The notes under the pieces: model-generated | The model's input: the letters and a program-made list of their open reading frames with translations, nothing else | Databases searched by the model: none | Told to the model about the DNA's origin: nothing | Translations under genes and position numbers: made by a program | IMG/VR virus record: IMGVR_UViG_3300027759_003301 | Span: 1 to 34,178 of that record | Origin: a virus | Reading direction: 5' to 3' (one strand) | Length of the DNA: 34,178 nt | Shown: positions 1 to 31,719 of the stretch, piece after piece | Layout of the letters: every line of letters begins with the position of its first letter | How positions within the stretch are numbered: position 1 is the stretch's first letter

Positions 1-1260
1 GCAAAAGAAATCTTGCGTGGCCTGCGTCCGCACTTTGAAGAGTTCCACAAAGGACACATCACAGACGAAGCAATTGATGCCGCTGTGGATCTGAGTGTGC
101 GATATCAAACAGACAAGAAACTGCCAGACAAGGCCATTGATCTAATAGACACTGCGAGTGCCAAGTTAAAAATTGCACAGGATGACTTCACAGTCACACG
201 CAGTCACATCATTGAGATTGTCAGCAAGTTTACTAAGATCCCAATTGAACAACTGGGCAATGACAGCAACACTACCAAGAACTTGTCAAACCTAGATGTG
301 CAAATCAAGAGTCGCTTGTATGGACAGGACCCTGTGGTTGACTCGGTGCTGGAACGCATTTATGTCAGCCGTGCAGGTCTGAAACCAATCAACAAACCAA
401 TTGGTAACTTTTTGTTCTTGGGTCCAACTGGCACAGGTAAAACTGAACTTAGCAAACTACTAGCTGAATATCTCGGGATGAAACTACTACGATATGATAT
501 GAGCGAGTACCAAGAAAAGCATTCAATTGCCAAACTTGTAGGTGCTCCCCCCGGGTATGTTGGCTACGACGATCGCAACCTAGGTGGCGGCTTGCTAATC
601 AGTGAGATTGAAAAGAATCCCAACTGTGTGATCTTGTTTGACGAAGTTGAAAAAGCACATCCTGATGTGAGCAACATCTTGTTGAGCATGATGGACGAAG
701 GCACAGTCACAAGTAGCAATGGCAAGAAAGCTGACTGTCGTAATGCTATTATTATTCTAACAAGTAATTTAGGTGCGGCTGATAATGAGCGTAACAACAT
801 TGGCTTTGGTCGTGAACTGCAAAAGTCAGACGAAGATGACAAAGCAGTCAAGGAATTCTTCAAGCCAGAGTTTCGTAACAGGCTAGACGGCATCTGCAAG
901 TTCAGCAAGCTGGATGAGTTCTCCATGCGCAAGATTGTTACCAAGTTTGTGAATGAAATGAATGACCTACTGAGTGACAAAGCATTGCGAGTGAGACTGA
1001 GCGAAGATGCAACAACTGAATTGATCCGGCAAGGATTTGATCCCAAGATGGGTGCTAGGCCACTGGGCCGCAAGATCAATGATCTAGTCAAGGTGCCATT
1101 GAGTAAGAAGATTTTGTTTGAAGCTGTTGAACCCAATAGCTTGATCACAGTCAATTACGCTGCCGGAAAGTTTGAATTTGACATTCAAAGTACAAACTTT
1201 GATTCACCTCCTATTGTGGACGAAAATGGATACATTGTTCTGGACGTCGTTAAATCCTAA
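1..1260 (+). CDS. ClpA-like AAA+ unfoldase, C-terminal part (5' end outside window)
   Basis: The reading frame is open from the first base, so the N-terminus lies upstream. What remains is the end of the first AAA+ module and a complete second (D2) module. Counting from codon 5 of the window: Walker A GPTGTGKT at about 137-144, a GYVG pore loop at 181-184, Walker B ILFDE at 207-211, arginine finger FRNRLD at 287-292 and sensor 2 GARPLGR at 347-353. An IGF tripeptide (263-265) sits just before the KPEFRNRLD block, where ClpA and ClpX carry the loop that docks on ClpP; ClpB lacks it. This favours a ClpA-type protein unfoldase over a ClpB-type disaggregase. The last 25 or so residues after the D2 fold are an acidic/hydrophobic tail of unknown role. 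Family assignment is very secure; the partner protease is inferred. Confidence 0.93.
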   Translation, partial: AKEILRGLRPHFEEFHKGHITDEAIDAAVDLSVRYQTDKKLPDKAIDLIDTASAKLKIAQDDFTVTRSHIIEIVSKFTKIPIEQLGNDSNTTKNLSNLDVQIKSRLYGQDPVVDSVLERIYVSRAGLKPINKPIGNFLFLGPTGTGKTELSKLLAEYLGMKLLRYDMSEYQEKHSIAKLVGAPPGYVGYDDRNLGGGLLISEIEKNPNCVILFDEVEKAHPDVSNILLSMMDEGTVTSSNGKKADCRNAIIILTSNLGAADNERNNIGFGRELQKSDEDDKAVKEFFKPEFRNRLDGICKFSKLDEFSMRKIVTKFVNEMNDLLSDKALRVRLSEDATTELIRQGFDPKMGARPLGRKINDLVKVPLSKKILFEAVEPNSLITVNYAAGKFEFDIQSTNFDSPPIVDENGYIVLDVVKS

Positions 1261-3670: not shown

Positions 3671-5413
3671 ATGCACGTTATAGACATATTTGAAGCAACA
3701 CAACGCAGAGTAGTAGCAATCTACCCGGGACGTTTTCAACCTTTCCACCGCGGACATCGTGCGGTGTTTGAATACTTGAGCAAAGCATTTGGTGCAGAAA
3801 ACACATATATCGCTACCAGCGACAAAGTAAATCCTCCTAAAAGCCCATTTAACTTCTCTGAAAAACAGCGTATGATGGCCCTGACAGGTATTGATACCAG
3901 CAGAGTAGTACAAACAGCAGAACCTTACCGTGCCAACGAAATTGTAGACAGCCTGGACAAAGAAAACACTGTGTTGGTATTTGCAGTGAGTCAAAAGGAC
4001 ATGGCAGAGGATCCACGCTTTGCCAAGTGGACCAAGAAAGACGGTAGCCCCAGTTACTTTCAACCTGCTCCAAAGGACTTGAGTCAAGCGGCTCCACTGG
4101 CACAACATGCCTATATCTATGTTGTGCCTACCTTTCCGTTTAAGATACAAGGACAGGATGTGGAAAGTGCCACTGCTATTCGTGCGCTGTTTGCACAGTC
4201 AGACGAAGCACAAAAGAAAGCCCTGGTCAAGGAACTGTTTGGTGCATATGATGATCAAGTGTACGACATCATGGCCAACAAGATTACCGAAGGATGGAAA
4301 AGTCGCTTGGCAGGAGCCGCGCTGGCAGGCGCTGCCGCAATGGGTGGCGCACCTGCACAAGCTGACGTAAACCTAGGCACTGTGTTCACAGCAGGACGAG
4401 CCATCAACAATGCCAGACAGATTACTGCACATGATGTGCGTAACGAAATTGGCAATGAGATTACCAACATTGCACGTGGTGATCGCAACCACAGTCATGT
4501 GCTGGGCATGGGCAAAACAGCACCGCAGCCGCTGAGAGCAATGGAAATGGGCAAGGACTTGTCCAGTACCAAAGATGCCGCACTAAAACAATTACAACGC
4601 AGATCAGGACAGCAAGTGGATCCTAACCGTGTGCGCTATGATGTAGATGAAGTCAAACCTGGAGTGTTTCGAGTTGTTGCTATCACCGAAGAGGCCGCAG
4701 GTGTTGGCGTTGTTGCCAGTAAAAAACAAGCCAAAGATCCACGCTATTCAATGAGTCTTACTCGGGATGTGCGCCCAGGTCAAGTTAACAAAAGTCTTAG
4801 AGCTTTCAAACTTGCAGAAAATGCAGAACAACTAAACGTAGGCGACAATGTGATCATCACCGGTGATGTGGAATTCAAAGGAACCACCGGAGTGATTGAT
4901 GACTTTGGTCGTGACAAACGTTTTGTTATTGTTAATTTATACAACCACGGCAAGCATAGTTTCCACAGTAGTGACGTTGAACACAATGACTATGCGGATA
5001 GCGATGAAGAACAGTCATATCACTACGACCGCAATCCTGATGCTCGTGATTGGGAGGTAGACGAAAGCATGTATCAATACGATCAAGCAGATCCATTCAA
5101 CAGTGAATTTGCTCCAGACGTGGGCATGGGCCGCATGACTCTACGTGCATGGAAACAGTCGCTCATACGCAGGGTTCGGCAACTCAGTACAGAATTAGAC
5201 CAAGCAGGTCAACACATGGACTCAGCTGCCATGTGGGACAACATTTATAAAAAAATGAAAGCATTGAATCTAGATCCAATTGCACAGGAAATTGAACTTG
5301 CGCACAACGAACTAGAAAAGATTCGCCGGCAAGGAGGCACACGTAGTCGTGCATTCAAACAGCTGGGTGAACAGATTGTCATGCTACAACGACTTGCCAA
5401 GGACAGAAAATGA
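3671..5413 (+). CDS. NMNAT-like nucleotidyltransferase fused to a long virion-like C-terminal region
   Basis: 580 residues. The first 200 form a cytidylyltransferase/NMNAT-type domain: GRFQPFHRGH at 20-29 with the catalytic HxGH, and ESATAIR at 165-171 matching the second ATP-binding motif. Family members transfer AMP or CMP to a phosphate-bearing substrate such as nicotinamide mononucleotide; the substrate here is not determinable. After KITEG (204-208) comes an Ala/Gly hydrophobic stretch (212-231), then a second small domain (about 385-440, VGDNVIITGDVEFKGTTGVI, KOW/SH3-like), an acidic Tyr-rich linker, and a Lys/Arg/Glu-rich probable coiled coil (about 490-575). The domain alone would be about 200 residues, so two thirds is extra. 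ITE-G and LAE-N (381-384) resemble T4 prohead protease sites. Confidence 0.82.
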   Translation: MHVIDIFEATQRRVVAIYPGRFQPFHRGHRAVFEYLSKAFGAENTYIATSDKVNPPKSPFNFSEKQRMMALTGIDTSRVVQTAEPYRANEIVDSLDKENTVLVFAVSQKDMAEDPRFAKWTKKDGSPSYFQPAPKDLSQAAPLAQHAYIYVVPTFPFKIQGQDVESATAIRALFAQSDEAQKKALVKELFGAYDDQVYDIMANKITEGWKSRLAGAALAGAAAMGGAPAQADVNLGTVFTAGRAINNARQITAHDVRNEIGNEITNIARGDRNHSHVLGMGKTAPQPLRAMEMGKDLSSTKDAALKQLQRRSGQQVDPNRVRYDVDEVKPGVFRVVAITEEAAGVGVVASKKQAKDPRYSMSLTRDVRPGQVNKSLRAFKLAENAEQLNVGDNVIITGDVEFKGTTGVIDDFGRDKRFVIVNLYNHGKHSFHSSDVEHNDYADSDEEQSYHYDRNPDARDWEVDESMYQYDQADPFNSEFAPDVGMGRMTLRAWKQSLIRRVRQLSTELDQAGQHMDSAAMWDNIYKKMKALNLDPIAQEIELAHNELEKIRRQGGTRSRAFKQLGEQIVMLQRLAKDRK

Positions 5414-5705: not shown

Positions 5706-5885
5706 ATGCGAAGCAGTGAATTTGTAAAAGACGCCAAGTTGGCTGAAAATGCCACTGGTGGTGCAACAGGATCTGCTGCCGTAGCCACAATGCCAGGTGC
5801 TAAATCCAGCGAAGCAGGCAGTTTGTTTGGTGGCACATACCAACAACGAGATAACCCATTCCGTAAAAAAGGTAAGAAAAAATGA
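5706..5885 (+). CDS. small Gly/Ala/Lys peptide, 59 aa, possible internal virion peptide
   Basis: Begins MRSSEFVKDAKLAENATGG and ends NPFRKKGKKK. It is low in hydrophobics, glycine/alanine/serine-rich and has a strongly basic tail. LAE-N at residues 12-15 resembles a T4 prohead protease site. A good Shine-Dalgarno (AAGGA) and a promoter-like box precede it, and it overlaps the next gene by ATGA. A packaged or scaffold-type peptide would fit; no family is recognised. Confidence 0.75.
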   Translation: MRSSEFVKDAKLAENATGGATGSAAVATMPGAKSSEAGSLFGGTYQQRDNPFRKKGKKK

Positions 5886-6496
5886 GCGACATGAAAAAAC
5901 TACTTGAGAGCATGACCAAGTTCTCAGGCGAACCCACACAAAAGCCCGGCGACCAAGTTCGCGGCACTGATCAAGCCACACACGAAAATCCATTCAAACA
6001 TCGCTTGGTGGGTGAAACCGAAGAGTATTGCGATGCTTGCGATCGCCCTGTAAAAAAATGCGTGTGCGATGATGAACTCAGAGAATCACTCATGCAAGAG
6101 TATCAGTACTTTGTAAAAGAAGCTCCTGCTGTGGCGGCTAATGTTGTTGCCACCAGCCCAACTCCTGCACAAACTCCTCCAGGTGGCGCACCAGGACCAG
6201 GCGGAACAGCCGCTCCTGCAGGTACTGCTCCTGCTGTGCCAGGACAACCTGTACCACCACCCAAACCAGGACAACCAGCCGCTCCTGCGGTTCCAGGTCA
6301 GCCACCCAAGCCGGGACAACCAGCACCTGCAGGTACTGCGCCAACAGGCGCTGCCGGAACAGCAACACCTCCTGTGAATCCCATGCAGGTCAAGAAAGAC
6401 ACTGAAGCACTAACGGCATTACTCAATAACCCTGCTCATCCAATGAATGCACAGCTACAAGCATTGATTAAAAAAGCTGGTAGCATACCCAAGTAA
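5882..6496 (+). CDS. Pro/Ala/Gly-rich protein with an N-terminal Cys4 motif
   Basis: 204 residues starting in an ATGA overlap. Residues 1-45 are polar. C50-x2-C53 and C60-x-C62 form a short possible zinc knuckle (YCDACDRPVKKCVC). Residues 82-175 are a proline/alanine/glycine linker with repeated PGQPxxP and PAGTAP units, coded by internally repetitive DNA. The C-terminus (180-204) is a small helical segment (ALTALLNNPAHPMNAQLQALIKK is its span, residues about 176-198). Such a flexible spacer suits a virion or scaffold protein. Function unknown. Confidence 0.75.
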   Translation: MSDMKKLLESMTKFSGEPTQKPGDQVRGTDQATHENPFKHRLVGETEEYCDACDRPVKKCVCDDELRESLMQEYQYFVKEAPAVAANVVATSPTPAQTPPGGAPGPGGTAAPAGTAPAVPGQPVPPPKPGQPAAPAVPGQPPKPGQPAPAGTAPTGAAGTATPPVNPMQVKKDTEALTALLNNPAHPMNAQLQALIKKAGSIPK

Positions 6497-6505
6497 GGAT
6501 TAGAA

Positions 6506-8551
6506 ATGTTTGTTAACGATCTGTTTGAAAAGAAAAAGCCCGAGCCAGAGAAGCCACGCAACTTTGTGGCCAAGAATGCCAAGATGGGTGGTGCCGGTGC
6601 GCACAAAGATAAAAAGAAAGCTGACAAGCAAGGCGATGCCAAGCACAAAAAAGATTTGGCCGCTGATCTAGCAGAAGGCAACCGTGGCTACAATCATGGC
6701 TTTGCCAGTCCCACTGCACCTAGCCTCAAAGGTCGTAGAGAGTTTGACGAGCCAGATGCTGTTAACAACATTGAAATTTCAATCAACGGTCGTCCATGGA
6801 AAGTGTTTGCAGGCAAAGGATTAGATTCTAGTCCAGAGTTCTTCAAACAAAAGCAAATGGTTGATGCCATGTGCAAACGCAAGACTGCTGAAACTGGTAA
6901 AAAATGGAGTTGGGGTGTGACAGGTGCACCAGCAACCAACGAAGCCAACTTGGCCACACAAGATAAAGAAAATCGTTTCAAAGCTATCAAACAAAGAGAT
7001 CAACAGCAGGACCGATTGACTCATCAAGCAATGAACAATGTCATTGATGAAGGTGTAGCAGAAGGCTCGTTGAATGAATTTGCAACAAATGATGACGATG
7101 ATGACGACTATGATGACGAGGAGGATGACTTCCCGGAGATGTTTGAGGCGCCATTTACTGCTGTTATTAACGGTAAAAAACAAACTGGCACTGTGATAAT
7201 TTATCCTGGAGAAGTTACCTCGGCAGAATGGCATCTCAAGGACACAATCTATATCAAAACTGGTATGGATAATGTATACAATACTAGTGACTTTATTACA
7301 CATGCGGCGGAATACATTCAAGAAATCATTAAATTGGATGGCCGAGGTCATAATTATGTAAAGCATCTAAAGCGTCGAGGTCGAGGTGTGGCGGAAGGTG
7401 CTGATAGCGAAGAACTTGCTGATGAAGTATATGCAGAGTTTGAAAGAATATATCCCAATCTGGCACGCCGGGCAGACGAACGCACAGTTCACGCCGCTAT
7501 CATTGATGTATTGAACTACGGTGGAGACAGTAACCCAAGTGCCCTGGCACAGGATGTTGCTCGTGCAGTCAAGCGTGATATGCAACAAGGCGTGGCAGAA
7601 GGCATGAAAGCCGATGAGCTTTCACGCTACTGTGAAAAACTTGTGGCTGAAAAAGGCTGGGACGCTGCATACAAACATGCCCGGTTCATGGCTGCAGGCG
7701 CTACTGATCCTGCATGGGGCAGTGTGTTGAAATATCTTCATGCCATGAAAGACGGCATTAATGAAGCACATGATACCGCAGCCAAAGAAATATTTGGTAA
7801 CCTATTTCACAATTCCATTCCACCGGGTGCAGAAAAGCATCATGTCAGTGCTGTGTTAAAGGCACATGGATTAAAAGACACTGATGCCAAACATGTGCTT
7901 GACCGGGTGCGTAAAATGGGATACACTGGTTCTCGTTTGGACAAGTCAGAGACGGACGAAGGTCGTATGGTCAAAGGTCCAGGTGGTGTGCCACTGGATC
8001 GTCAAGGTCGTCCTATTGTCGCTAAAGCAAAACCATTAAGCATGCGTAAGTGGCTTGTGGTCCATGATGGCTCGCATGGCGAAGGTGGCAAAGACATTAT
8101 CGAAGCACCCAACGCTGAAACTGCCTGGGAAACAGCCAATGAGTATGATCTAAATATTATCAGTATCACTCCTTACCGAGGACCAGCCGGACCCACGCTG
8201 GTGGATGAAGGTGTGGCGGAAGGCTCGGAACTAAAGCAAGCCAAACGCAAGTACAACCAGGCCGCTAAAGATGCCAACTTGGACCAAGTGGGTGCAGGTA
8301 AAAAGATTGATACTATGAAGAAAAGTCTGCGTCAGAAAGACCTAGGTAAAGAGCAAGGCATGGCGGAAGGCGAGACTGATTATCAAAAGCGCCGTCAACG
8401 TGAACGTGATGTGGATGCAGGCAAGCCTGTTAAACCGCCGCCAAAGAATCCACAGAATGATTACTTTGCTCGTCGCAAAAAAGAACGAGATCTCAATGAA
8501 GAAATTGAAATTAGATTAATTGAATTACGCATGAACGGATATGAGCTCTAA
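6506..8551 (+). CDS. 681-residue modular protein with repeated (V/L/M)AEG motifs, putative internal or scaffold polyprotein
   Basis: No single family is recognised. The protein is a string of short modules separated by hydrophobic-Ala-Glu-Gly motifs: LAEG 55-58, VAEG 184-187, 295-298, 363-366 and 570-573, and MAEG 620-623. T4 gp21 prohead protease cuts after (L/I)-x-E, often before G or A, so each motif could be a cleavage site giving seven fragments. The first module is Lys-rich. 195-212 is a run of Asp/Glu. About 212-285 is a beta-rich domain, 366-420 a helical domain, 421-490 another helical domain, and 515-565 a small alpha/beta unit (MRKWLVVHDGSHGEGG). The tail is basic then acidic. AAGGA just before 6506 supports the start. 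It could be core/scaffold protein, injected effector carrier, or both. Confidence 0.75.
   Translation: MFVNDLFEKKKPEPEKPRNFVAKNAKMGGAGAHKDKKKADKQGDAKHKKDLAADLAEGNRGYNHGFASPTAPSLKGRREFDEPDAVNNIEISINGRPWKVFAGKGLDSSPEFFKQKQMVDAMCKRKTAETGKKWSWGVTGAPATNEANLATQDKENRFKAIKQRDQQQDRLTHQAMNNVIDEGVAEGSLNEFATNDDDDDDYDDEEDDFPEMFEAPFTAVINGKKQTGTVIIYPGEVTSAEWHLKDTIYIKTGMDNVYNTSDFITHAAEYIQEIIKLDGRGHNYVKHLKRRGRGVAEGADSEELADEVYAEFERIYPNLARRADERTVHAAIIDVLNYGGDSNPSALAQDVARAVKRDMQQGVAEGMKADELSRYCEKLVAEKGWDAAYKHARFMAAGATDPAWGSVLKYLHAMKDGINEAHDTAAKEIFGNLFHNSIPPGAEKHHVSAVLKAHGLKDTDAKHVLDRVRKMGYTGSRLDKSETDEGRMVKGPGGVPLDRQGRPIVAKAKPLSMRKWLVVHDGSHGEGGKDIIEAPNAETAWETANEYDLNIISITPYRGPAGPTLVDEGVAEGSELKQAKRKYNQAAKDANLDQVGAGKKIDTMKKSLRQKDLGKEQGMAEGETDYQKRRQRERDVDAGKPVKPPPKNPQNDYFARRKKERDLNEEIEIRLIELRMNGYEL
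7046..8371 (+). repeat. dispersed short repeats coding for (DEG)VAEG
   Basis: Five copies of a 15-base unit (GGTGTGGCGGAAGGC and near variants, including ATG for GTG) lie at about 7052-7066, 7385-7399, 7589-7603, 8210-8224 and 8357-8371. Two copies extend to 24 bases coding DEGVAEGS (7046-7069 and 8204-8227) with only two differences. They are in frame and mark the module boundaries of the 681-residue protein. Confidence 0.75.
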
Positions 8552-18443: not shown

Positions 18444-18805
18444 TCAAAGGTCTTCAAGGCTCTGCCCATGTGATAGTCAACGGTGGCAATACCAGTGTTC
18501 CGTATGTTACCCAAAACATAAACAATCCCATGCAAGGTATGATTCGTGTTAATGGAACAGACATGCAAGTATTTGACGGCAGCTCGTGGATTGGTATGAA
18601 CACTAGTTATGCCACTGTTGGATTAGAACCCACTGCCGAGGAAGCTATCAAATGGGTCAGGCACAAGATGGCGGAAGAACAAGATCTACACAAACGTATG
18701 AAGAAACATCCTGGGCTTAAACAAGCCTGGGAGCAGTTTCAGATCATGGACGCACTAACAATGGAAGAAGAAAAACATGACACAGGAGTCCAAAGTGGAC
18801 CTTGA
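18440..18805 (+). CDS. hypothetical protein, possible structural component
   Basis: 121 residues in ATGA overlap with the omega-like gene. The N-terminal half is beta-rich and contains GMIRVNGTDMQVFDGSSWIG (about 33-52), a pattern common in phage tail-fibre and tail-tip proteins that display short repeated beta hairpins. The C-terminal half is a charged helix (KWVRHKMAEEQDLHKRMKKH). I do not assign a role. Its last 29 bases overlap the transferase gene. Confidence 0.7.
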   Translation: MIKGLQGSAHVIVNGGNTSVPYVTQNINNPMQGMIRVNGTDMQVFDGSSWIGMNTSYATVGLEPTAEEAIKWVRHKMAEEQDLHKRMKKHPGLKQAWEQFQIMDALTMEEEKHDTGVQSGP

Positions 18806-20366
18806 GCAAGACAATCTCACAGCCAAGCAAAAAGACTATGCTGTGTTTTTGCCAGCCATCTCAGGGTTCTATGCCACTTACATAGGCAAACAACGTGATC
18901 CAGTAAAAGGTCCGTATGTGGAACCTGCACGTATGCCCGCAGGCATACCAGACATGGAGCAGATGAATTGGCTCAACAGTGCCCAAAGTATGTTTCCGTA
19001 CAAGTGGAGTTTGTATTCAGGTGGGCATGCCAACTTGGACTTGACCAAACAAGACTGGTCGGAAGACATGGTTCGTAACCGTGAGCCGGGTACGTTCATG
19101 CTGGGTGACTCTGGTGGATTCCAGATTGCCAAGGGCTTGTGGGAAGGCGACTGGAAAGCCAATTCAGGATGCCCTAAAGCACAGAAGAAGCGTGAATCTA
19201 TTCTCAAATGGTTGGACGGTATTGCAGACTACTCTATGACACTAGATATCCCAACCTGGGTTATCCATGACAAAAAAGCCAGCCGTGCCTGTCAAATTAC
19301 CACACTACCTGAAGCAGTTGCGGCTACCAAGTACAACAACGAATACTTCATGAAACACCGCAAGGGTGTTAAGAATGGTGGCACCAAGATCTTGAACGTG
19401 TTGCAAGGTGACAATCATGAGAGTGCAGAAGCTTGGTATCAGATCATGAAAGATTATTGTGATCCTGTGAAGTATCCAGACACACACTTTGATGGGTGGT
19501 CGATGGGTGGACAAAACATGTGTGACGTGCAACTGGTGCTGACTAGATTGGTGGCGTTGCGTTACGATAACTTGTTGCAACCAGGCATTCACGACTGGAT
19601 GCACTTCTTGGGCACAAGCAAACTAGAGTGGGCAGTGTTGCTGACTGTTATTCAACGTGCTGTTCGCAAGCACGTGAATCCCAACTTTACCATCAGCTTT
19701 GACTGTGCAAGTCCTTTCTTGGCCACAGCAAACGGACAAGTGTATCATCACATTGACTTGCCACATGATGACAAGTGGTGCTATCGTATGAGTCCCAGTG
19801 CAGACGACAAGAAGTATTCCCTGGACACGCGAAGCTACAGAGATGTTACCATGCAGGACGGCTACTGGGACCACTTTGATGAAAGTCCTGTAAGCAAGCA
19901 TCTACAGATCAAAGACATCTGTGTGTACAAGCCTGGTGACCTAAACAAGATTGGCAAAGAAGGCAAGACATCGTGGGATAGTTTCTCATATGCACTGCTC
20001 ATGGGTCATAATGTTTGGATGCACATCGAAGCAGTACAACGTGCCAATCGTGAGTTTGACTCTGGCGCACATCCTGCCATGATGCGACATGATGGTGGTG
20101 ACTATGAGTTTTTTGAAGACATTGTGGAACGTATCTTTGCCGCGCCAGATCGTGCTAGTGCAATGGCCATAATTGAAGATCCCAAGTACGCAGGTAAAAC
20201 TGGCTACTGGAATCAAATTGTTGGCACACGTGGATTCAAAGGCGAGAAGACCATGAACGCACACAGCCAGGCAAACAAGCATCTTGAAATTGTTGCAACT
20301 CCTGATGCTCCCAAAGAGAAAAAAGAAAAACCGGTAGTAGTACTAGACACCAACTTATTTGAATAA
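18777..20366 (+). CDS. dpdA: TGT-family transferase, DpdA-like (7-deazaguanine insertion into DNA)
   Basis: 529 residues. TGT-fold landmarks in order: DSGGFQ (111-116, base-binding), MTLDIP (D157, equivalent of the general acid/base Asp), NVLQGDN (207-213), FDGWSMGGQ (238-246), MHFLGTS (275-281) and FDCASP (D309, the likely covalent nucleophile; bacterial TGT has FDCVMPTR). HNVWMHIEA near 400 matches the family C-terminal region, but the CxCxxC zinc ligands of tRNA enzymes are missing. DpdA proteins exchange guanine for preQ0-type bases in DNA. Phage location and FolE, QueD-like and QueE genes downstream support DNA as target; tRNA remains possible. GGAAGAAG upstream supports ATG 18777. Confidence 0.82.
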   Translation: MTQESKVDLEQDNLTAKQKDYAVFLPAISGFYATYIGKQRDPVKGPYVEPARMPAGIPDMEQMNWLNSAQSMFPYKWSLYSGGHANLDLTKQDWSEDMVRNREPGTFMLGDSGGFQIAKGLWEGDWKANSGCPKAQKKRESILKWLDGIADYSMTLDIPTWVIHDKKASRACQITTLPEAVAATKYNNEYFMKHRKGVKNGGTKILNVLQGDNHESAEAWYQIMKDYCDPVKYPDTHFDGWSMGGQNMCDVQLVLTRLVALRYDNLLQPGIHDWMHFLGTSKLEWAVLLTVIQRAVRKHVNPNFTISFDCASPFLATANGQVYHHIDLPHDDKWCYRMSPSADDKKYSLDTRSYRDVTMQDGYWDHFDESPVSKHLQIKDICVYKPGDLNKIGKEGKTSWDSFSYALLMGHNVWMHIEAVQRANREFDSGAHPAMMRHDGGDYEFFEDIVERIFAAPDRASAMAIIEDPKYAGKTGYWNQIVGTRGFKGEKTMNAHSQANKHLEIVATPDAPKEKKEKPVVVLDTNLFE

Positions 20367-25172: not shown

Positions 25173-25865
25173 ATGAGTTATAATAAAACAAAAACTGATC
25201 CAATTCTGGGTCGTGCAGTACACGAACATCTATTGAGCAAGGGTGTGGAAACACCTGGTGTGGGCTCTGTGGAATCATTGTGTGATCGCAAAGAAAAAAT
25301 TGAAAAGATTGAACTAGCATTTGATGCTATCATGAAAATCTTGGGCTTGGACTTGTCAGACGACAGTCTAATTGACACACCCAAGCGTGTGGCCAAGATG
25401 TATGTAAATGAAATCTTTTGGGGCCTAGATGTTGAAGCATTTCCCAAATGCACAACTGTAGACAACAAGATGAAGTACGACGAAATGGTTGTGGAACGCA
25501 ACGTCAATGTACAGAGCAACTGTGAACATCACTTTGTTGTGATTGACGGTGTGGCAACTGTGGCATACATTCCCAAGCAAAAGGTTCTAGGACTAAGCAA
25601 GATCAACAGAATCGTTGAATACTTTGCAAAACGTCCGCAGATTCAAGAACGTCTTACCGAGCAGGTGTTTCATGCCTTGAGCTTTATTCTAGAAACAGAC
25701 AACGTGGCTGTGGTAGTTGATGCTCAACACTACTGTGTGAAAAGTCGCGGTGTGGAAGATGTGGGCTCAAGCACTGTTACAAGTAAACTAGGCGGCGTGT
25801 TCAAGAACGATCCTAGTGTGCGTAACGAGTTCATGAATATCGTGAACACCTGCAAACGTGCGTAA
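25173..25865 (+). CDS. folE: GTP cyclohydrolase I (FolE)
   Basis: 230 residues (E. coli 222). CEHH at 117-120 supplies Cys and His zinc ligands and C188 in HYCVKSRGV the third. LSKINRIVEYFAKRPQIQER (141-160) and the TVTSKLGG end are family signatures. It converts GTP to 7,8-dihydroneopterin triphosphate, the first step of both folate and 7-deazaguanine synthesis. With the QueD-like, QueE and TGT-like genes, the 7-deazaguanine route is the more likely purpose. Driven by a consensus host promoter. Residues 1-45 are less conserved-looking. Confidence 0.95.
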   Translation: MSYNKTKTDPILGRAVHEHLLSKGVETPGVGSVESLCDRKEKIEKIELAFDAIMKILGLDLSDDSLIDTPKRVAKMYVNEIFWGLDVEAFPKCTTVDNKMKYDEMVVERNVNVQSNCEHHFVVIDGVATVAYIPKQKVLGLSKINRIVEYFAKRPQIQERLTEQVFHALSFILETDNVAVVVDAQHYCVKSRGVEDVGSSTVTSKLGGVFKNDPSVRNEFMNIVNTCKRA

Positions 25866-25866
25866 T

Positions 25867-26094
25867 ATGAACTCGGTTGACCTTGCCAACAACTTGATCA
25901 GCCGCGCACGAAGTCTACAAAAGTTTGACATCGTGCGCAGTGTTCCGGAGAATTTTTTATTCAACGGTAGACAACCTTACGATATCAAAATGAATCATCA
26001 AGTGATGACTGTCACTGTACACGCTATCAATCTTGCAGAAGCAAATGCCATGGTAGACAAATATCTAGACGACAATTCAGCAACGGAGTGGTAA
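25867..26094 (+). CDS. small hypothetical protein, 75 aa
   Basis: ATG 25867 lies one base after the folE stop (the frame could start nine bases earlier at GTG). MNSVDLANNLISRARSLQKF opens a helical segment; MTVTVHAINLAEANAMVDKY is a beta-alpha unit. Family not recognised. Confidence 0.7.
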   Translation: MNSVDLANNLISRARSLQKFDIVRSVPENFLFNGRQPYDIKMNHQVMTVTVHAINLAEANAMVDKYLDDNSATEW

Positions 26095-26095
26095 T

Positions 26096-26644
26096 ATGAG
26101 TGGGGCATACAGAGAAAAAGATTCAGCAGACTTTGATTTAGAAGCATTTATTGACTTGTTTGATGAAGCACTTACTAGTGATGATCCTGGTGTGCAAAAA
26201 ACACTACAGCATCTAATGGTGATCGCGGCACTGGCTCGTAACCATGCCCGACATGATCATCGTGACGGTCCAATGCGCCGCATGTTTGAGAATCAACGTG
26301 ATCTTATTCGGAGGTTGGAAAGACTTGAGTCAGATCAACAGCGCAAACAAGTCTACCCAGGCGGAGGTTTGGGAGGCGGAAGCGTTCCGCTTGGCCCTTA
26401 TGTGCCAGGTACCCCGTGGCCTGGAACAGGTGGAGGCACTGGTTGGCCAACGCATCCTATTACTTATCCACCCGGCACAATCTGGGCACAAAATCAAACA
26501 TCCACAGGCACGACACGGCTAGACCCAGGATACGGTGCAGTTCCTCCAAGTTCGGCAACATCAATGGTTGCAGAACGTGTGCAAGATCTGTTAAAATCAC
26601 CTAACTACAAAGGCAGCTCTGTTGGTGCCAACGATAAGGAATAA
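26096..26644 (+). CDS. hypothetical protein with Gly/Pro-rich C-terminal half
   Basis: 182 residues beginning one base after the previous stop. The first 90 residues are helical and acidic (FDLEAFIDLFDEALTSDD) with an Arg/His-rich helix ending RRLERLESDQQRKQ, possibly a coiled coil. Residues 95-160 are Gly/Pro/Thr repeats (GGGLGGGSVPLGPYVPGTPW), low complexity. A structural or linker protein is plausible; function unknown. Confidence 0.7.
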   Translation: MSGAYREKDSADFDLEAFIDLFDEALTSDDPGVQKTLQHLMVIAALARNHARHDHRDGPMRRMFENQRDLIRRLERLESDQQRKQVYPGGGLGGGSVPLGPYVPGTPWPGTGGGTGWPTHPITYPPGTIWAQNQTSTGTTRLDPGYGAVPPSSATSMVAERVQDLLKSPNYKGSSVGANDKE

Positions 26645-26645
26645 C

Positions 26646-27119
26646 ATGTTTCTTAAATTGCTTGAACGGTTGGGTCGTAAGCGTGTGATCTATGACAGGA
26701 TTGCCAACGAACCTTACTTGGAACGCTATTACTTGTTCTTGAAAGAACGAGAGCGTTTTCCGTTCAATGTGTTTTTACACAAGTTCCTGAAAGGCGATCC
26801 AGATGATGTTCATGATCATCCGTGGCCGTATGCAACGCTAATACTGAAAGGTGGCTATTATGAATGGGTTCCAGTTTTTAATACAATTGGCGAGAAAATC
26901 AACGAGATTCGTTACTGGCGTGGGCCCGGACACTTTCGCACTTGCAGTGCTGGCAGTTATCATCGCATCGAATTGGATCCTGGCGTGACTGCCTGGACCT
27001 TGTTCATGCCCGGACCACACAAACGAGAATGGGGATTCTTGACAGGTAAGAATCCACGAACAGATTGGGAACACAATGAAAGTTATCTCACCCGGCGTGG
27101 TGGCGCTAAGGCCATTTAG
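26646..27119 (+). CDS. cupin-fold protein
   Basis: 157 residues from ATG 26646, chosen because AAGGA lies at 26636-26640; an in-frame ATG at 26622 lacks one. HDHPWPYATLILKGGYYEW (about 55-73) is a cupin motif 1 with the H-x-H pair and Gly; GSYHRIELDPGVTAWTLFM (about 109-127) is motif 2. Such small cupins can bind a metal and act as epimerases, isomerases or dioxygenases. Position beside sugar genes suggests a nucleotide-sugar enzyme but the substrate is unknown. Confidence 0.78.
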   Translation: MFLKLLERLGRKRVIYDRIANEPYLERYYLFLKERERFPFNVFLHKFLKGDPDDVHDHPWPYATLILKGGYYEWVPVFNTIGEKINEIRYWRGPGHFRTCSAGSYHRIELDPGVTAWTLFMPGPHKREWGFLTGKNPRTDWEHNESYLTRRGGAKAI

Positions 27120-27432
27120 AGTTGTTTGCTATGCGCTCACCCAAGAGATGGTTGACTGGTGGGTCATGATGGGCGCAGAAGCCCAGGAGATTGCAGATCC
27201 ACACTATACCATGCGTGGTGGGCACAAGGTAGAAAAACACTATCGTGTTCGCATGCCAGGTGTGGGCGCCAAGTGGAGCCACAAGTTCAACGACGGTAGT
27301 GGCACATACATGCTACACATGAGAGAAGAGTTTGCACCAGAAGCCAGTCTGTTCATATTAAAATGGCCAGACAACATTATCGACCATGACATAAAGGTAC
27401 CAAAAAATGATTACGAAGAACAAACTTATTGA
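27076..27432 (+). CDS. hypothetical protein, 118 aa
   Basis: Overlaps the cupin gene by 44 bases and the phosphoribosyltransferase by 26. It opens MKVISPGVVALRPFRVVCYA and contains MRGGHKVEKHYRVRMPG and SHKFNDGSGTYMLHMREEF. Mixed alpha/beta, soluble. No family is recognised. Confidence 0.65.
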   Translation: MKVISPGVVALRPFRVVCYALTQEMVDWWVMMGAEAQEIADPHYTMRGGHKVEKHYRVRMPGVGAKWSHKFNDGSGTYMLHMREEFAPEASLFILKWPDNIIDHDIKVPKNDYEEQTY

Positions 27433-27982
27433 ATTAAACAACAAACACATACGAAAGCATGTGCGAAATATCATTCGTGAGCTGGGTGATTGGCGGCCTG
27501 ACTATGTGGTAGGCATCACACGTGGAGGATTGGTTCCTGCTGTGATGATCAGTCAGTATCTTGACGTGCCCATGTACACCCTACACATCAGTTTCCGTGA
27601 CGCTGAATCTGGCCCTGAAAGTAACTTGTGGATGGCAGAAGATGCGTATGGTTATGTTCCCTACGAAGGCACTGAGCTTCCTGTGGCTCGTGACCCTGAT
27701 CGGGTAACAACTGAACCTGCACTACGCAAGAAGATCTTGATTGTGGATGACATCAACGATTCAGGTCGCACACTGAACTGGATCAAGGAAGACTGGCCAA
27801 GTGGTTGCTTGCCCAATGATCCAGACTGGGCAGATATCTGGCACAACACTGTTCGCTTTGCCACTGTCGTAAACAATGAGGCCAGTGAATTTAAGAACGT
27901 GGATTACGTAGGACTAACTATTAACAAACTAGAGGAACCATCGTGGGTGGTGTTTCCGTGGGAGTGCTGGTGGGAGAAATAA
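27407..27982 (+). CDS. phosphoribosyltransferase (purine type)
   Basis: 191 residues. ILIVDDINDSGRT (110-122) is the PRPP-binding motif of type I phosphoribosyltransferases, and GITRGGLVPAV (36-46) is the pyrophosphate-binding loop of purine enzymes such as xanthine/hypoxanthine-guanine phosphoribosyltransferase. It would attach ribose-5-phosphate to a free purine base. Near the 7-deazaguanine genes it might salvage bases, perhaps including guanine released by the TGT-like enzyme; that link is inference. 26-base overlap upstream. Confidence 0.9.
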   Translation: MITKNKLIELNNKHIRKHVRNIIRELGDWRPDYVVGITRGGLVPAVMISQYLDVPMYTLHISFRDAESGPESNLWMAEDAYGYVPYEGTELPVARDPDRVTTEPALRKKILIVDDINDSGRTLNWIKEDWPSGCLPNDPDWADIWHNTVRFATVVNNEASEFKNVDYVGLTINKLEEPSWVVFPWECWWEK

Positions 27983-28368
27983 AATCACTTGACTATTGCA
28001 CTAACATACTGTCGTACAGTATACTAGAGCATGTGCCTGACAAATCTATTGTTGTGAAACTGTCTGCTGTAGACCCGAAGTTTGTAATACGTCCCGAGGT
28101 TAGAATTGTAGCAGGATGGTACACTTGGTTGTGTGCAGACATGGTTGGTAGTATGCTATTAGGACAGGCAGGATACAACGGACTAACAAAGAATCTAAAC
28201 ATAGATCTTGTTAAGACATATCGTACCCCTACTATCACGGGCAGAGGTTTAGTAAAGTCAATTGTTGACGATGTTTGGACCATTGACATAGAATTATTCA
28301 ATTCAGAAAGCACGTTGATATCAACTGCATCTGGAGAATTCAAGGGATTTAAGAGAGAACTAAAATGA
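27943..28368 (+). CDS. hotdog-fold thioesterase-like protein
   Basis: 141 residues starting at GTG 27943 with AGAGGA upstream, overlapping the phosphoribosyltransferase by 40 bases. The order ADMVGSMLLGQAG (about 48-60), TKNLNIDLVKTYRTPTITGRG (64-85) and IDIELFNSESTLISTASGEF (107-126) matches PaaI/YiiD-type hotdog proteins: a helix wrapped by strands, the last reading L-I-x-x-A-x-G. Such enzymes hydrolyse acyl-CoA or acyl-ACP thioesters. With the desaturase it could modify host lipids. The catalytic Asp is not certain. Confidence 0.7.
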   Translation: MGGVSVGVLVGEIKSLDYCTNILSYSILEHVPDKSIVVKLSAVDPKFVIRPEVRIVAGWYTWLCADMVGSMLLGQAGYNGLTKNLNIDLVKTYRTPTITGRGLVKSIVDDVWTIDIELFNSESTLISTASGEFKGFKRELK

Positions 28369-28856
28369 TGAATGGAAAACGAGTAGGCTTCACAGCCTCA
28401 ACATTTGACTTGCTACATGCAGGGCACATTGCCATGCTTCGCGAGTCAAAAGAACAATGCGAGTACCTGATTTGTGCTCTACAAAACGACCCAACCTTGG
28501 ATCGCCCTAACAAGAATCGTCCGGTACAAAGTGTAGTGGAACGTCAACTACAACTGGTAGGTTGCAAGTACGTGGACGAAGTATGGGTCTACAACACAGA
28601 AAAAGATCTTGAAGACTTGCTTCTTATCCTGCCAATTGACATGCGTATCCTGGGGGTAGAGTACGAAGGTAAAGAGTTTACTGGTCGTGAGATTTGTCAC
28701 AAGCGAAACATTGATCTATACTTTAACGGTCGTGATCACAGTTTTAGTTCTAGTGAACTTCGCCAGCGTGTGGCCAATGCAGAAGACTTGAAAAAGAAGA
28801 TACAATTATATGAGCCGACAGGATCAGACGACACCGGCGGACCTAGCCAAAAATAA
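28365..28856 (+). CDS. TagD-like cytidylyltransferase
   Basis: 163 residues, ATGA overlap upstream. FDLLHAGH (14-21) is the HxGH nucleotide-binding motif, RPVQS (52-56) the middle Arg, and SFSSSELRQR (126-135) the second signature (RTxGISTTxxR in glycerol-3-phosphate cytidylyltransferase). Members make CDP-glycerol or similar activated alcohols from CTP. The exact substrate is unknown. It could supply a CDP-linked precursor for a surface polymer or phage glycan. The C-terminal 20 residues are a low-complexity tail. Confidence 0.85.
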   Translation: MMNGKRVGFTASTFDLLHAGHIAMLRESKEQCEYLICALQNDPTLDRPNKNRPVQSVVERQLQLVGCKYVDEVWVYNTEKDLEDLLLILPIDMRILGVEYEGKEFTGREICHKRNIDLYFNGRDHSFSSSELRQRVANAEDLKKKIQLYEPTGSDDTGGPSQK

Positions 28857-28925
28857 ATAGTTGTAAGCGGCCTTGGCTTCATCCCGCTATATCAAACTCT
28901 GCCAGCCTATGCTAAACAACATAGG
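28853..28925 (+). promoter_or_regulatory. leader of the first queD-like gene: ATAAATA box, hairpin and possible pseudoknot
   Basis: ATAAATA (28853-28859) would start RNA near 28866 by T4 late spacing. There AGCGG (28866-28870) pairs with CCGCT (28884-28888), and loop bases TGGC (28874-28877) are complementary to GCCA (28901-28904), allowing an H-type pseudoknot. TAGGAG near 28921 is the ribosome site for ATG 28935. It is not a match to the preQ1 riboswitch consensus (tail not A-rich). Confidence 0.35.
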
Positions 28926-28934
28926 AGAAACAGC

Positions 28935-29441
28935 ATGTCAGCACTACAACCAGTGGTATACAAATACCAAAGTACCAAAGAGTATCACGACGCATTTCCA
29001 TGCGCCTACCGTCAATGGAGGAGTGATAGTCATTGTAATCTAATACATGGTTACTCATTCTCAATGAAGTTCTATTTTGGAACCAATGACCTAGACGTGC
29101 GCAACTGGGCCGCAGACTACGGCGGACTCAAAGAACTCAAGAAGATCCTTGAAGACCAATTTGACCATACCTTGATCGTGGCACAAGATGATCCAGAAAT
29201 GGAAATATACAAACTGTTGCAAGAGCGCAACATGGCCAAGGTTGTGGTGTTACCACGACTAGGTTGCGAAGGCCTAAGCGACATGCTGTACAAGTATGTG
29301 AATGGTGTGTACATTCCCGAAATGTGGGGTGAAGGTGAAGCCAAGCGACTGTGGTGCTATCGTGTGGAAGTACGTGAAACCCAATCAAACATGGCGTTCC
29401 GTGAAGGCCATCGTGAATGGAATGAAGATCTATTTGCGTAA
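28935..29441 (+). CDS. queD: QueD-like protein (6-carboxytetrahydropterin synthase family), paralogue 1
   Basis: 168 residues. FPCAYRQWRSDSHCNLIHGY (21-40), WAADYGGLKELKKIL (58-72), FDHT (76-79, catalytic Asp-His) and VRET (146-149, substrate Glu) give the T-fold QueD/PTPS order. The catalytic Cys is C34 of CxxxHG. Two of the three canonical zinc histidines are replaced: the SAAH His by Tyr25 and the HGH second His by Tyr40; H38 is kept. C23 and H33 are conserved in both paralogues here and may be replacement ligands. QueD turns dihydroneopterin triphosphate into 6-carboxytetrahydropterin. Activity should not be assumed from the name. Confidence 0.85.
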   Translation: MSALQPVVYKYQSTKEYHDAFPCAYRQWRSDSHCNLIHGYSFSMKFYFGTNDLDVRNWAADYGGLKELKKILEDQFDHTLIVAQDDPEMEIYKLLQERNMAKVVVLPRLGCEGLSDMLYKYVNGVYIPEMWGEGEAKRLWCYRVEVRETQSNMAFREGHREWNEDLFA

Positions 29442-29592
29442 AATTTGGCGCCTTTGGGCAAAAAGTTTGGGCGAAAAAACAGGCGATTCGGATGCTGAAG
29501 CAGACCGAATTGCTTGCATTCGTACAGTAATTGTGTTATGCTATGTACTGACCAACTGCTTTATTGTGGCTGGCGTAATTCATCATTGGTAA
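29422..29592 (+). CDS. small single-span membrane protein, 56 aa
   Basis: MKIYLRKIWRLWAKSLGEKT opens the frame at ATG 29422, overlapping the preceding gene by 20 bases. A basic, Trp-rich amphipathic N-terminus is followed by an acidic linker (DSDAEAD) and one hydrophobic helix (about 32-52, VIVLCYVLTNCFIVAGVI). Likely an inner-membrane peptide with unknown role. Confidence 0.7.
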   Translation: MKIYLRKIWRLWAKSLGEKTGDSDAEADRIACIRTVIVLCYVLTNCFIVAGVIHHW

Positions 29593-29613
29593 ACTTTCAA
29601 TCAGGAGATTCAA

Positions 29614-30159
29614 ATGGCAAGACGCTTTAGTACCAAAACTTATGGTAACGATCGTGGACTGAGTTGCACTTTTAGACAATGGCGTGCCACGCACAGTCAT
29701 TGCAGTTTGCTACATGGATACAGTTTGGGTTTCAAGTTTGTGTTTGAAGCAGAAGAACTGGACGAGCGCAACTGGGTACAAGACTTTGGCGGCCTGGCCG
29801 AGCTCAAAGCATTCCTGGAAAAAACATTTGATCACACCATGGTTGTGGCACAAGATGATCCCATGCTTGAGCAGTTTCAAGCCATGTCAGGTTGGAGTGC
29901 AGATGCTGAACTAAACGGCAAGCCAGAAGAAGTTCAAGCACATCCTGTAGGCAACAAAGGTGTTATCAATCTAATCACACTGCCTGCTGTGGGTTGTGAA
30001 AAGTTTGCAGAATTTGTGTATGCTTGGACAAACGATTGGCTCAATGATGACCCTACCAACAAGTACAAAAACTTGCTGGGTGATGAACACGCTCGCGTTA
30101 AATTGTTGAGTGTGGAATGCTTTGAACACGCAGGCAATTCTGCAATCTATGAAGGTTAA
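29614..30159 (+). CDS. queD: QueD-like protein, paralogue 2
   Basis: 181 residues. LSCTFRQWRATHSHCSLLHG (16-35), WVQDFGGLAEL (54-64), FDHTMVV (72-78) and SVECFE (late) align with the first paralogue. The zinc site is altered the same way: Phe20 where the SAAH His should be and Tyr36 in HGY; H34 and the preceding SHC (28-30) are kept. A roughly 25-residue insertion (about 92-117, MSGWSADAELNGKPEEVQAH region) separates it from the shorter paralogue. CAGGAG just before 29614 sets the start. The two may have divided functions or work as a hetero-oligomer. Confidence 0.85.
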   Translation: MARRFSTKTYGNDRGLSCTFRQWRATHSHCSLLHGYSLGFKFVFEAEELDERNWVQDFGGLAELKAFLEKTFDHTMVVAQDDPMLEQFQAMSGWSADAELNGKPEEVQAHPVGNKGVINLITLPAVGCEKFAEFVYAWTNDWLNDDPTNKYKNLLGDEHARVKLLSVECFEHAGNSAIYEG

Positions 30160-30160
30160 T

Positions 30161-30589
30161 ATGGTTGAAGAAATATTCGAAGGCCCAGAACATATTGACG
30201 ACAGTTCTGCTCCGTGGGACGATACTGTTAAACAAGACTTTCATGTTGCGGTGTTCAATGATCGGTATCCTTGCACACCAGGGCACAAGTTGTTTGTTCC
30301 ACAATACAACAGTTTGTCTATACTGGCTCAGGCCTTTGAGGATGCTGTGCGTGAAGGCAAGCGCATGATACACAATGGTGAATGTGATGGGTTCAATGTT
30401 GGTCTCAACTACGGCAGTGCCGCAGGACAGACTGTGAATTGGCCACACATTCATCTTATTCCTCGCAGAACAGGTGATGTAGAAGATCCAGTTGGTGGTG
30501 TGCGTAACACTATTCCAGGCAAAGGAAACTACAAGAAATGGCCTACTGAGGCTCCAAAACAAAGTAACTTTCAAGGCGATCACATTTGA
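30161..30589 (+). CDS. HIT-family nucleotide hydrolase/transferase-like
   Basis: 142 residues from ATG 30161 (GAAGG at 30151-30155). YPCTPGHKLFVPQYN is the HIT N-terminal region, and VGLNYGSAAGQTVNWPHIHL (80-99) then IPRR carries the histidine triad. The usual H-x-H-x-H is W94-P-H96-I-H98, so the first histidine is replaced by Trp while the catalytic middle and last histidines stay. HIT enzymes hydrolyse or transfer nucleotidyl groups from dinucleotides. Substrate unknown. It overlaps the aminotransferase by one base (TGATG). Confidence 0.85.
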   Translation: MVEEIFEGPEHIDDSSAPWDDTVKQDFHVAVFNDRYPCTPGHKLFVPQYNSLSILAQAFEDAVREGKRMIHNGECDGFNVGLNYGSAAGQTVNWPHIHLIPRRTGDVEDPVGGVRNTIPGKGNYKKWPTEAPKQSNFQGDHI

Positions 30590-31701
30590 TGAATGTGATG
30601 AAACCACTGTTGCCAACTGCTGATGAGTTGGCCCCTTATATTAATCAGATGAATGAGTCTGGGCATTACAGCAACTTTGGTCCTATCAATAACATCCTTG
30701 AGAGCAGACTGACCCAGATCTTTAACAAGCCAATTGTCACTGCATCCAGTGGAACCACTGCTCTTGAGGTTGCCATTGCCAGCCACTATCTCCCAGTTAA
30801 CAGTTATATCCTGGTACCAGCACTCACATACATTGCCACTGCTACCGCAGTTAGACGCTGTGGACATCGTGTGTTAGTAAGTGACATTGATCTTGATCAT
30901 TGGATCCTAACACCCGCACGTGCCAGAGATCTTGTGAACAAGTATCCTGGTGAAATCAAGATGGTCATTCCCGTGGCCACGTTTGGACATACCCTGCCAG
31001 CAGATGAGTGGAGTGAGTTTGCAAAAGAAACAGGCATTCCTGTTGTGATGGACTGTGCTCAAGCGTTCGGCAGTCAACCAGATGTTGGGACATGTACTGC
31101 CATGTTCAGTATGCATGCCACAAAAGCACTGCCAGCAGGCGAAGGTGGATTCATTGTCACTACCAAGGAACTGCAAGGTGTGCAACGATCAATGACCAGC
31201 TTTGGCCAAAACTTAGGTCGGTCCACAACAGATCGTATGTTGGTTGTAGAAGACTACGGAACCAATGCAAAACTAAGTGAGTTGCATGCGGCGGTGGCTA
31301 ATATCATGCTGGATCGTTGGCCCGCTAGACTGCAACAATTCCGCATGCAACTCAATGCATATCAAGACCTGTTAGAATATCGGTTTGGTGATTCACCGTT
31401 TGGTGAACAAATGCGATTCCAAACTGGCTGTAGAGATTACATCCGACAGATGTTTGTGGTGCGATTTGAATCTACGACTGTTAGAAATCGAGTCGAACAA
31501 CATCTAGCAGATAAAGGAATACAAACTAAACGTCCTTATCAGCCGCTAGTAAATAAACATCCAGGCTTTTGGTCAGCAAACGCAGAACGCATAGTAAATG
31601 CAGAACTCATTGCTGATCAAACTCTAACAATTCCGTTCTGGTTAGAAATGAGCAAGGATGATATGCAAACTGTTTGCAATGCTATTGCAGAAGTGTTATA
31701 A
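30589..31701 (+). CDS. DegT/DnrJ/EryC1-type sugar aminotransferase
   Basis: 370 residues. SSGTTAL (53-59) binds the PLP phosphate, D155 in VVMDCAQA pairs with the PLP nitrogen, and SMHATKALPAGEGGF (174-188) places the Schiff-base lysine at K179 with the family GEGG. The enzyme transfers an amino group to a keto-sugar nucleotide to make dideoxy amino sugars for surface glycans or glycosylated proteins. Its neighbours GalE-like, TagD-like and glycosyltransferase genes fit. The end of the gene contains the queE promoter. Confidence 0.92.
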   Translation: MNVMKPLLPTADELAPYINQMNESGHYSNFGPINNILESRLTQIFNKPIVTASSGTTALEVAIASHYLPVNSYILVPALTYIATATAVRRCGHRVLVSDIDLDHWILTPARARDLVNKYPGEIKMVIPVATFGHTLPADEWSEFAKETGIPVVMDCAQAFGSQPDVGTCTAMFSMHATKALPAGEGGFIVTTKELQGVQRSMTSFGQNLGRSTTDRMLVVEDYGTNAKLSELHAAVANIMLDRWPARLQQFRMQLNAYQDLLEYRFGDSPFGEQMRFQTGCRDYIRQMFVVRFESTTVRNRVEQHLADKGIQTKRPYQPLVNKHPGFWSANAERIVNAELIADQTLTIPFWLEMSKDDMQTVCNAIAEVL

Positions 31702-31702
31702 T
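31674..31702 (+). promoter_or_regulatory. sigma70-type promoter for queE
   Basis: TTGCAA (31674-31679), 17-base spacer, perfect TATAAT (31697-31702); AGAGGTG precedes ATG 31720. The promoter lies in the last codons of the aminotransferase. Confidence 0.6.
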
Positions 31703-31719
31703 GACAAAAGAGGTGAAAC

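Follow-up and report, generated by a model that had tools for sequence, protein, structure and literature searches.

A candidate head-packaged, protease-cut precursor carrying an NMNAT-like nucleotidylyltransferase in an uncultured phage

The proteins that a phage injects govern how an infection starts in its first minutes, and they frequently act against the defences of the host; outside T4 and phiKZ-like phages there are few marks by which they can be recognised. In T4, Alt and the internal proteins IpI-IpIII are late, head-associated and injected. The T4 prohead protease gp21 cleaves after L/I-x-E, and the capsid-targeting sequence (CTS) comprises the first 10 residues, with residues 4 and 7 serving in targeting and residues 8 and 10 needed for cutting (PMC9026906). 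Alt is an enzyme that is cut at both ends, at ITE-6 and LTE-619 (PMC5694885). In cyanophages, NMNAT-like/cytidylyltransferase proteins have been detected in virions by mass spectrometry, namely ORF91 of S-SCSM1 (PMC9602691) and gp154 of S-CREM2, with other cases cited alongside the latter by authors who also allow contamination as the source (PMC10665884). Nine cyanophage homologues follow the T4 CTS pattern (aromatic at 4 and 7, hydrophobic at 8, E10) exactly or nearly, with E10 in 9/9, a hydrophobic residue 8 (Phe in P-TIM68, else Leu or Ile) and Phe4 in 8/9. Their starts (MKSFLQFLKE/A, MKNFSSFLTE/A, MKSFFQFLSE/A, MKSFSQFLTE/T, MKSFTSFFTE/A, MKNFLAFITE/A, MKSFFQFLFE/S, MRSFLTFLTE/A and MKSLFQFLSE/A, a slash marking a known or predicted cleavage position here and below) have the same build as MKTYQEFIAE/A of T4 IpII/IpIII.

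The locus that we compare with these systems is ORF 3671-5413, on the plus strand of the window (the whole stretch of viral DNA that was analysed, 34,178 bases), which encodes a 580-aa protein; in reverse orientation, the first 19.1 kb of the window overlap with a nearly identical record of 70.7 kb (G001) at one of its ends. A preliminary description had read this ORF as an NMNAT-like enzyme fused to a tail, and the ORF is real, with KITE-G at residues 204-208. We give a probability of about 0.68 to the reading that it encodes a late, head-packaged precursor of the T4 internal-protein type, which would be cut by a gp21-type protease into enzyme, signal-bearing and other pieces and injected. 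The features of the ORF and of its two neighbours are as follows.

3671..3694, plus strand: leader MHVIDIFE, whose IxE site directly precedes A9 and which is a candidate propeptide for capsid targeting (leader pattern, also found on unrelated genes).
3695..4291, plus strand: nucleotidylyltransferase domain, residues 9-207, with HxGH at 26-29 and SATAIR at 166-171, ending KITE (Pfam/NCBIfam, AF2, Foldseek, invariant residues).
4283..4294, plus strand: putative ITE/G site, residues 205-208 (V/I-[TS]-E in L104, L106, L112 and L174; gp21 cuts T4 Alt at an ITE).
4292..4363, plus strand: Sec-signal-like segment GWKSRLAGAALAGAAAMGGAPAQA, residues 208-231 (sequence; V[AT]E/GWK with a signal-like segment recurs in other polyproteins).
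4364..4690, plus strand: fragment 232-340 after the signal, ending at the putative site ITE340 (first part common to L104, L106 and L112).
4691..4822, plus strand: mobile module beginning EAAGVGVVASKKQAKDPRYSMSLTRDVRPG, residues 341-384 (in unrelated multidomain phage proteins L084-L094).
4832..4990, plus strand: KOW-like module, residues ~388-440 (polyproteins of L055, L083, L179 and L181 include a homologous stretch).
5057..5068, plus strand: putative VDE/S site, residues 463-466 (in 10/10 relatives the C-terminal domain follows immediately on an [ILV]xE).
5066..5410, plus strand: C-terminal helical domain, residues 466-580 (comparison with relatives and model).
5882..6496, plus strand: 204-aa Pro/Ala-rich protein with start MSDMKKLLE/S, likely of the same cluster (G004 has a counterpart in the corresponding position).
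6506..8551, plus strand: 681-aa VAEG polyprotein with leader MFVNDLFE/K, DUF7230 near the N-terminus and seven [ILV]xEG sites (sequence, Pfam).

The protein of ORF 3671-5413 matches Pfam CTP_transf_like (1.1e-7) and TIGR00125, both above cut-off, and the AlphaFold (AF2) model of its enzyme domain has a mean pLDDT of 93. The HxGH motif, the Rossmann-like fold and the C-terminal S/T-x-x-x-R motif of the HIGH-type nucleotidylyltransferase superfamily are all present, and H26, G28, H29, D110 and R171 are invariant across 32 relatives. Given the family matches, the confident model and the invariant catalytic residues, the fold and active site are intact; the preliminary description had named loss of HxGH as evidence that would count against it, and HxGH is in place within a confident NaMN/NMN-adenylyltransferase-like model. 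The best solved structure found for the domain model with Foldseek is a NaMN adenylyltransferase (E 2e-6), with phosphopantetheine adenylyltransferases (PPAT) close behind the NaMN/NMN adenylyltransferases, so that the NadD, NadM and PPAT folds fit about equally. Scores lie far below the NMN/NaMN equivalog cut-offs (26 bits against 127 for NF002243, 21.9 against 181.2 for TIGR01527 and 16 against 112.45 for TIGR00482), and assignment to a curated NMNAT family (NadM/NadD equivalogs) was dropped for that reason. The substrate is probably NMN or NaMN, to which an adenylyl group would be joined. In Microcystis phage Mel-JY01 the corresponding domain (L038 7926-9842) has PMGIHH in place of HxGH, with the first His lost, and that copy may be inactive or altered.

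A single scan of IMG/VR with the family alignment gave at least 576 confirmed relatives; at this distance a search of named phages gave only Mel-JY01 and one uncultured record. In many of these relatives the nucleotidylyltransferase domain bears very different tails, among them a metallopeptidase-like HExxH in L085 and L132, a KxDG ligase-like part in Mel-JY01 and a helical C-terminal domain in L104, L106, L107 and L112. The window protein itself combines one known enzyme with unnamed modules, and its relatives are clearly multi-domain. The tail contains the parts described earlier, namely an Ala/Gly hydrophobic stretch at 213-227, the KOW-like part and helical C-terminal parts. Two of its modules recur elsewhere: the GVGVVASKKQ module also belongs to unrelated proteins whose other parts are of deaminase, metallopeptidase or lysozyme-like kind, and the KOW-like module sits within the VAEG polyproteins of other phages. 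A tblastn search of the GVGVVA module against named phages gave no match, and PADLOC gave none. The same enzyme domain also stands alone in some phages (L024-L036), without leader or tail, as a protein of ~222 aa ending in "..AKLG", which agrees with the earlier estimate of about 200 residues for a nucleotidyltransferase and 370 extra residues here. This stand-alone form speaks for an auxiliary metabolic enzyme of the usual intracellular kind, unpackaged and bearing a long disordered tail, in which [ILV]xE would be due to chance or linker bias. We consider that explanation unlikely on account of the joints, leaders and shared modules described below.

The window protein has [I/V]xE at IFE8, ITE207, ITE340 and VDE465, each on a module border. 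Since [ILVM]xE also occurs at six further positions (34, 113, 188, 327, 383 and 567), the motif by itself proves nothing and conservation is what counts. [ILV]xE stands exactly before the C-terminal domain in all ten distinct relatives, in seven spellings (VDE, LLE, LIE, IVE, IAE, LTE and LVE) and against ~1.7% of positions in the window protein, exactly before the KWSxKYK module in 8/8 and exactly before the ligase-like GGxxGHM module in 3/3 (IIAE/GG in Mel-JY01); it lies within a few residues of the NWFWYLPF and KOW modules (4/4 each), and [ILVMF]xE lies at most six residues upstream of the GVGVVA module in 12/15, although the rows within each set are partly related and the counts are not independent events. 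It is this exact joint conservation that an unpackaged enzyme with a chance-laden linker accounts for poorly. A plain count of [ILV]xE near the N-termini of all ORFs gave no excess, as the auxiliary-enzyme explanation would have it; because the tripeptide is too common for such a count, the restricted leader and joint tests were used.

ITE207 recurs as VTE, VSE, VTE and ITE in four relatives with the same following segment (L104, L106, L112 and L174), and since three more [ILV]xE sites lie on module borders, comparison indicates that ITE is more than a chance tripeptide. The preliminary description had proposed release of the enzyme by a cut after ITE; comparison is in keeping with such a cut, and the proposal was incomplete in that there would be at least four sites rather than one. 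In the AF2 model a single helix (195-223) runs through ITE207, and accessibility of this site is not obvious from the model; the 340 and 465 sites border low-confidence stretches. Val at P3 (VAE, VDE) falls outside the L/I-x-E rule of T4, and some relatives are without leader or sites.

The leader provides a second line of evidence. The pattern M-x-[IVLFT]-x-[DE]-[LIV]-[FLY]-E occurs at the first Met of 32/2874 ORFs versus 5/17,790 other Met (odds ratio 40; the p-value of 7e-23 is inflated, as the pattern was partly derived from the same data). A leader of the MxVxDLFE type is found on the enzyme and on about ten unrelated genes that have no nucleotidylyltransferase, including three adjacent genes in L299, the 681-aa polyprotein of the window and genes of L055, L084, L088, L090, L091 and L269. 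This spread over unrelated genes again weighs against an ordinary auxiliary enzyme. In G018 a small gene that comes next to the portal gene on its downstream side, where T4 has gp67, starts MDLNDLFEK, and in L099 a second leader copy, MHINEIFEA, lies within the chain at the end of the nucleotidylyltransferase, as would be expected of a gene fusion. The leader is absent in L107 and L131 and is followed by Pro in L004 and L006. IFE8 closes a short N-terminal propeptide ending in L/I-x-E and is conserved in relatives; MHVIDIFE does not fit the T4 CTS pattern. As a separate observation, many short genes near the nucleotidylyltransferase of LR756508 (484 kb, L052-L054) start with the amphipathic MK(I/L)xExxLRxIIREE, possibly another class of packaging leader.

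A protease suited to these sites is encoded by the relatives. A Peptidase_S77 (gp21) gene is present in 11/12 relative records of at least 160 kb, with none in G021 (167 kb) and none in the overlapping 70-kb record, which is a fragment. The aligned gp21-type proteases keep the GE(V/L)xHP and GVSxRG motifs, and sampled capsid proteins of the relatives have L-x-E (one VSE) where T4 has FLTE/A. One genome, G017, that of L104, has both the gp21-type protease, at L322 on the complement of 5939-6565, and a nucleotidylyltransferase carrying MFVADLFE and VVTE/GWK. The pieces might be freed by another protease instead, such as embedded zincin-like metallopeptidases, a route proposed for polyvalent proteins in the available part of their description (PMC5512222) and one for which relatives L085, L090, L132 and L153 have HExxH metallopeptidase-like segments. 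The window protein has no HExxH, and its sites agree with the rule for gp21 as well as with those in the capsid proteins of these phages, which makes processing by such an enzyme improbable. Head packaging and injection, which had been suggested earlier from the sequence, are a prediction that comparison favours through joint sites, leader, gp21-type proteases of relatives and virion detection of the distant cyanophage homologues; for the last of these, the contamination allowed by the cyanophage authors would suit an unpackaged enzyme.

The earlier suggestion that the enzyme is linked to the VAEG polyprotein (ORF 6506-8551) is likewise favoured by comparison. S-CREM2 gp160, also detected in virions (PMC10665884), shares with the VAEG polyproteins of L083 and L195 the module DACYHKVKxRYxVWPSAYASGALVxCRKKGAxNWG, which is present in 365 phage records; such sharing with a virion protein is a further point against an unpackaged auxiliary enzyme. 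A tblastn search of the 681-aa polyprotein against named phages gave no match. That the VAEG sites arose simply as a DNA repeat or from a mobile element was rejected, as the window copies use different synonymous codons. When window 6506-8551 is taken together with all loci, one 15-mer, GGTGTGGCGGAAGGC, encodes GVAEG in 39/76 contexts, and this shared 15-mer could ease domain shuffling by recombination at joints. Another such polyprotein has 1797 aa (L077 4090-9480; G015 224090-229480, minus strand), with ART-, ParB-, GNAT- and kinase-like stretches split by QGV(A/T)E sites, and the protein beside it in G015, of 773 aa, combines a Gp88 domain with a Tat signal. The surroundings also hold genes of other kinds: a chaperone set with ClpB-like, DnaJ-like, DnaK (27527-29446) and GroES-like members in G001 (L044-L047; 17806-34618; window 13-1260); a GTP cyclohydrolase I, two QueD-like genes and a QueE-like gene at window 25173-32592, a deazaguanine pathway perhaps serving DNA modification, near which ORF 18777-20366 has no PHROG or NCBIfam match; and, at 28365-28856, a second nucleotidylyltransferase of the HldE/glycerol-3-phosphate cytidylyltransferase type, unrelated to the finding on ORF 3671-5413.

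Directly behind ITE207 lies GWKSRLAGAALAGAAAMGGAPAQA/D, which has the build of a Sec signal (GWKSR, then AGAALAGAAAMGGA, then AQA/D; residues 208-231 were judged by rule only) and is kept in three relatives behind VTE, VSE and VTE and in a fourth, L174, behind ITE. The Ala/Gly stretch of the preliminary description exists, and a signal peptide that cleavage would expose seems a better reading of it than a hydrophobic part of no special kind. A different protein, in L180, has VTE/GWKQNVAAGILGATMALGAAPVRA/D, and Tat-type segments follow VAE/ADMN (L102) and IDE/ID (G015). Signal calls were made by simple rules except for Pfam TAT_signal matches at or just below cut-off: residues 197-217 of the G015 773-aa protein score 22.7 bits, equal to the cut-off, and L307 (21.6) and L306 (18.0) fall just under it, all three being relatives. 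With pattern-selected loci left out, signal-like segments are preceded by [ILV]xE in 8/11 cases in ORFs of this family versus 6/81 in other ORFs (p 4e-6, or 0.003 with the orthologous group collapsed); MDE/GWLKNTVAGAAIAGAALGAQA is a ninth case. Among the matches listed in a V[AT]EGWK scan are L195, L198, L199, L209, L216, L223, L253, L277, L287 and L299, nearly all polyproteins, and the listed matches are signal-like in 7/11 polyprotein contexts versus 5/42 others, 4 of these 5 also being member-like. A scan for V[AT]E-x4-RRGFLK gave seven loci, five of them true (two identical in sequence), all in polyproteins. In a further protein, of 569 aa (L076 9142-10848, minus strand), a segment that resembles a signal lies ~15-20 residues behind IVEG/LSED and ends in GTAQAQ at about residue 77.

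Because Sec/Tat-like signals sit directly behind sites, head-protease cleavage could unmask export signals, so that some injected fragments would be exported to the envelope and others, such as the NMNAT-like enzyme, would stay in the cytoplasm. We put this forward tentatively, at somewhat under even odds. Alternatively, the protein could be packaged and cut with the Ala/Gly stretches acting as membrane-inserting or SAR-like helices, for ejection or for the inner membrane, and no Sec/Tat export, which is possible if doubtful. The stretches are rich in Ala/Gly and of weak hydrophobicity, the segment after LEE/G in L182/L184 is plainly hydrophobic, and in L299 a GH19 muramidase follows such a stretch, as in SAR endolysins; that muramidase would make sense in the periplasm. 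The AxA-type ends (AQA/D, VRA/D) and the twin-arginine RRGFLK right behind VAE/ in L306, L307, L309 and L311 fit export signals and not ejection helices.

In the precursor reading that we prefer, the leader MHVIDIFE would take the protein into the prohead core, where a gp21-type prohead protease would cut after [I/L/V]xE at 8, 207, 340 and 465, sites picked out by conservation. This would free the NMNAT-like nucleotidylyltransferase, a fragment with a Sec-type new N-terminus, a small piece with the GVGVVA and KOW modules and a C-terminal helical piece, which, judging from T4 and the virion detection of cyanophage homologues, would reach the host along with the DNA. The enzyme would work at once in the cytoplasm, probably adenylylating NMN or NaMN to keep up NAD, and the signal-bearing fragment may be exported or inserted in the inner membrane, the least certain step. 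The neighbouring VAEG polyprotein would follow the same scheme. If so, the leader and [ILV]xE joint rule would be a sequence test for packaged, cut and injected proteins in many uncultured T4-like phages, predicting every fragment end. If the export signals are real, injected effectors would be directed to cytoplasm or envelope in a new way, and the capsid maturation protease would gain a new function. The debated cyanophage virion NMNAT-like proteins would also be tied to the T4 capsid-targeting system, making their question directly testable.

Virion NMNAT-like proteins, T4 Alt and internal proteins with their capsid targeting, and polyvalent proteins are already known. What appears new, against an incomplete coverage of the literature, is the principle that such polyproteins would share, joints for the prohead protease, and the internal Sec/Tat signals behind these joints; among the titles and abstracts listed on signal peptides in connection with the prohead protease and internal head proteins, none reports unmasked signals. 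Polyvalent proteins, in the available part of their description (PMC5512222), resemble the present family in having unrelated domains per chain, some with zincins, ARTs, ParB-like or GNAT domains, and in predicted injection with the DNA; that part mentions no internal Sec/Tat signals, and here it is the prohead protease that is predicted to process at conserved [ILV]xE joints, HExxH (a zincin-like processor) being confined to some relatives. In phiKZ and SPN3US many proteins of the head, and many that are ejected, are likewise processed after xxE by a gp21-related protease (gp175/gp245), although the propeptides are long and, in the available part of the accounts, we saw no modular effector polyproteins with repeated sites. 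S-SCSM1 ORF91 and S-CREM2 gp154 share with the window protein the superfamily, an LxE leader (at residue 10) and a C-terminal extension and are reported in virions; they differ in belonging to a distant subfamily, in having no Sec-like segment that we noticed and in their debated virion origin. T4 Alt and IpI-IpIII share the N-terminal propeptide ending in LxE/IxE, whereas the window protein, predicted from sequence, is a nucleotidylyltransferase with internal sites, several modules and a leader unlike MKTYQEFIAE.
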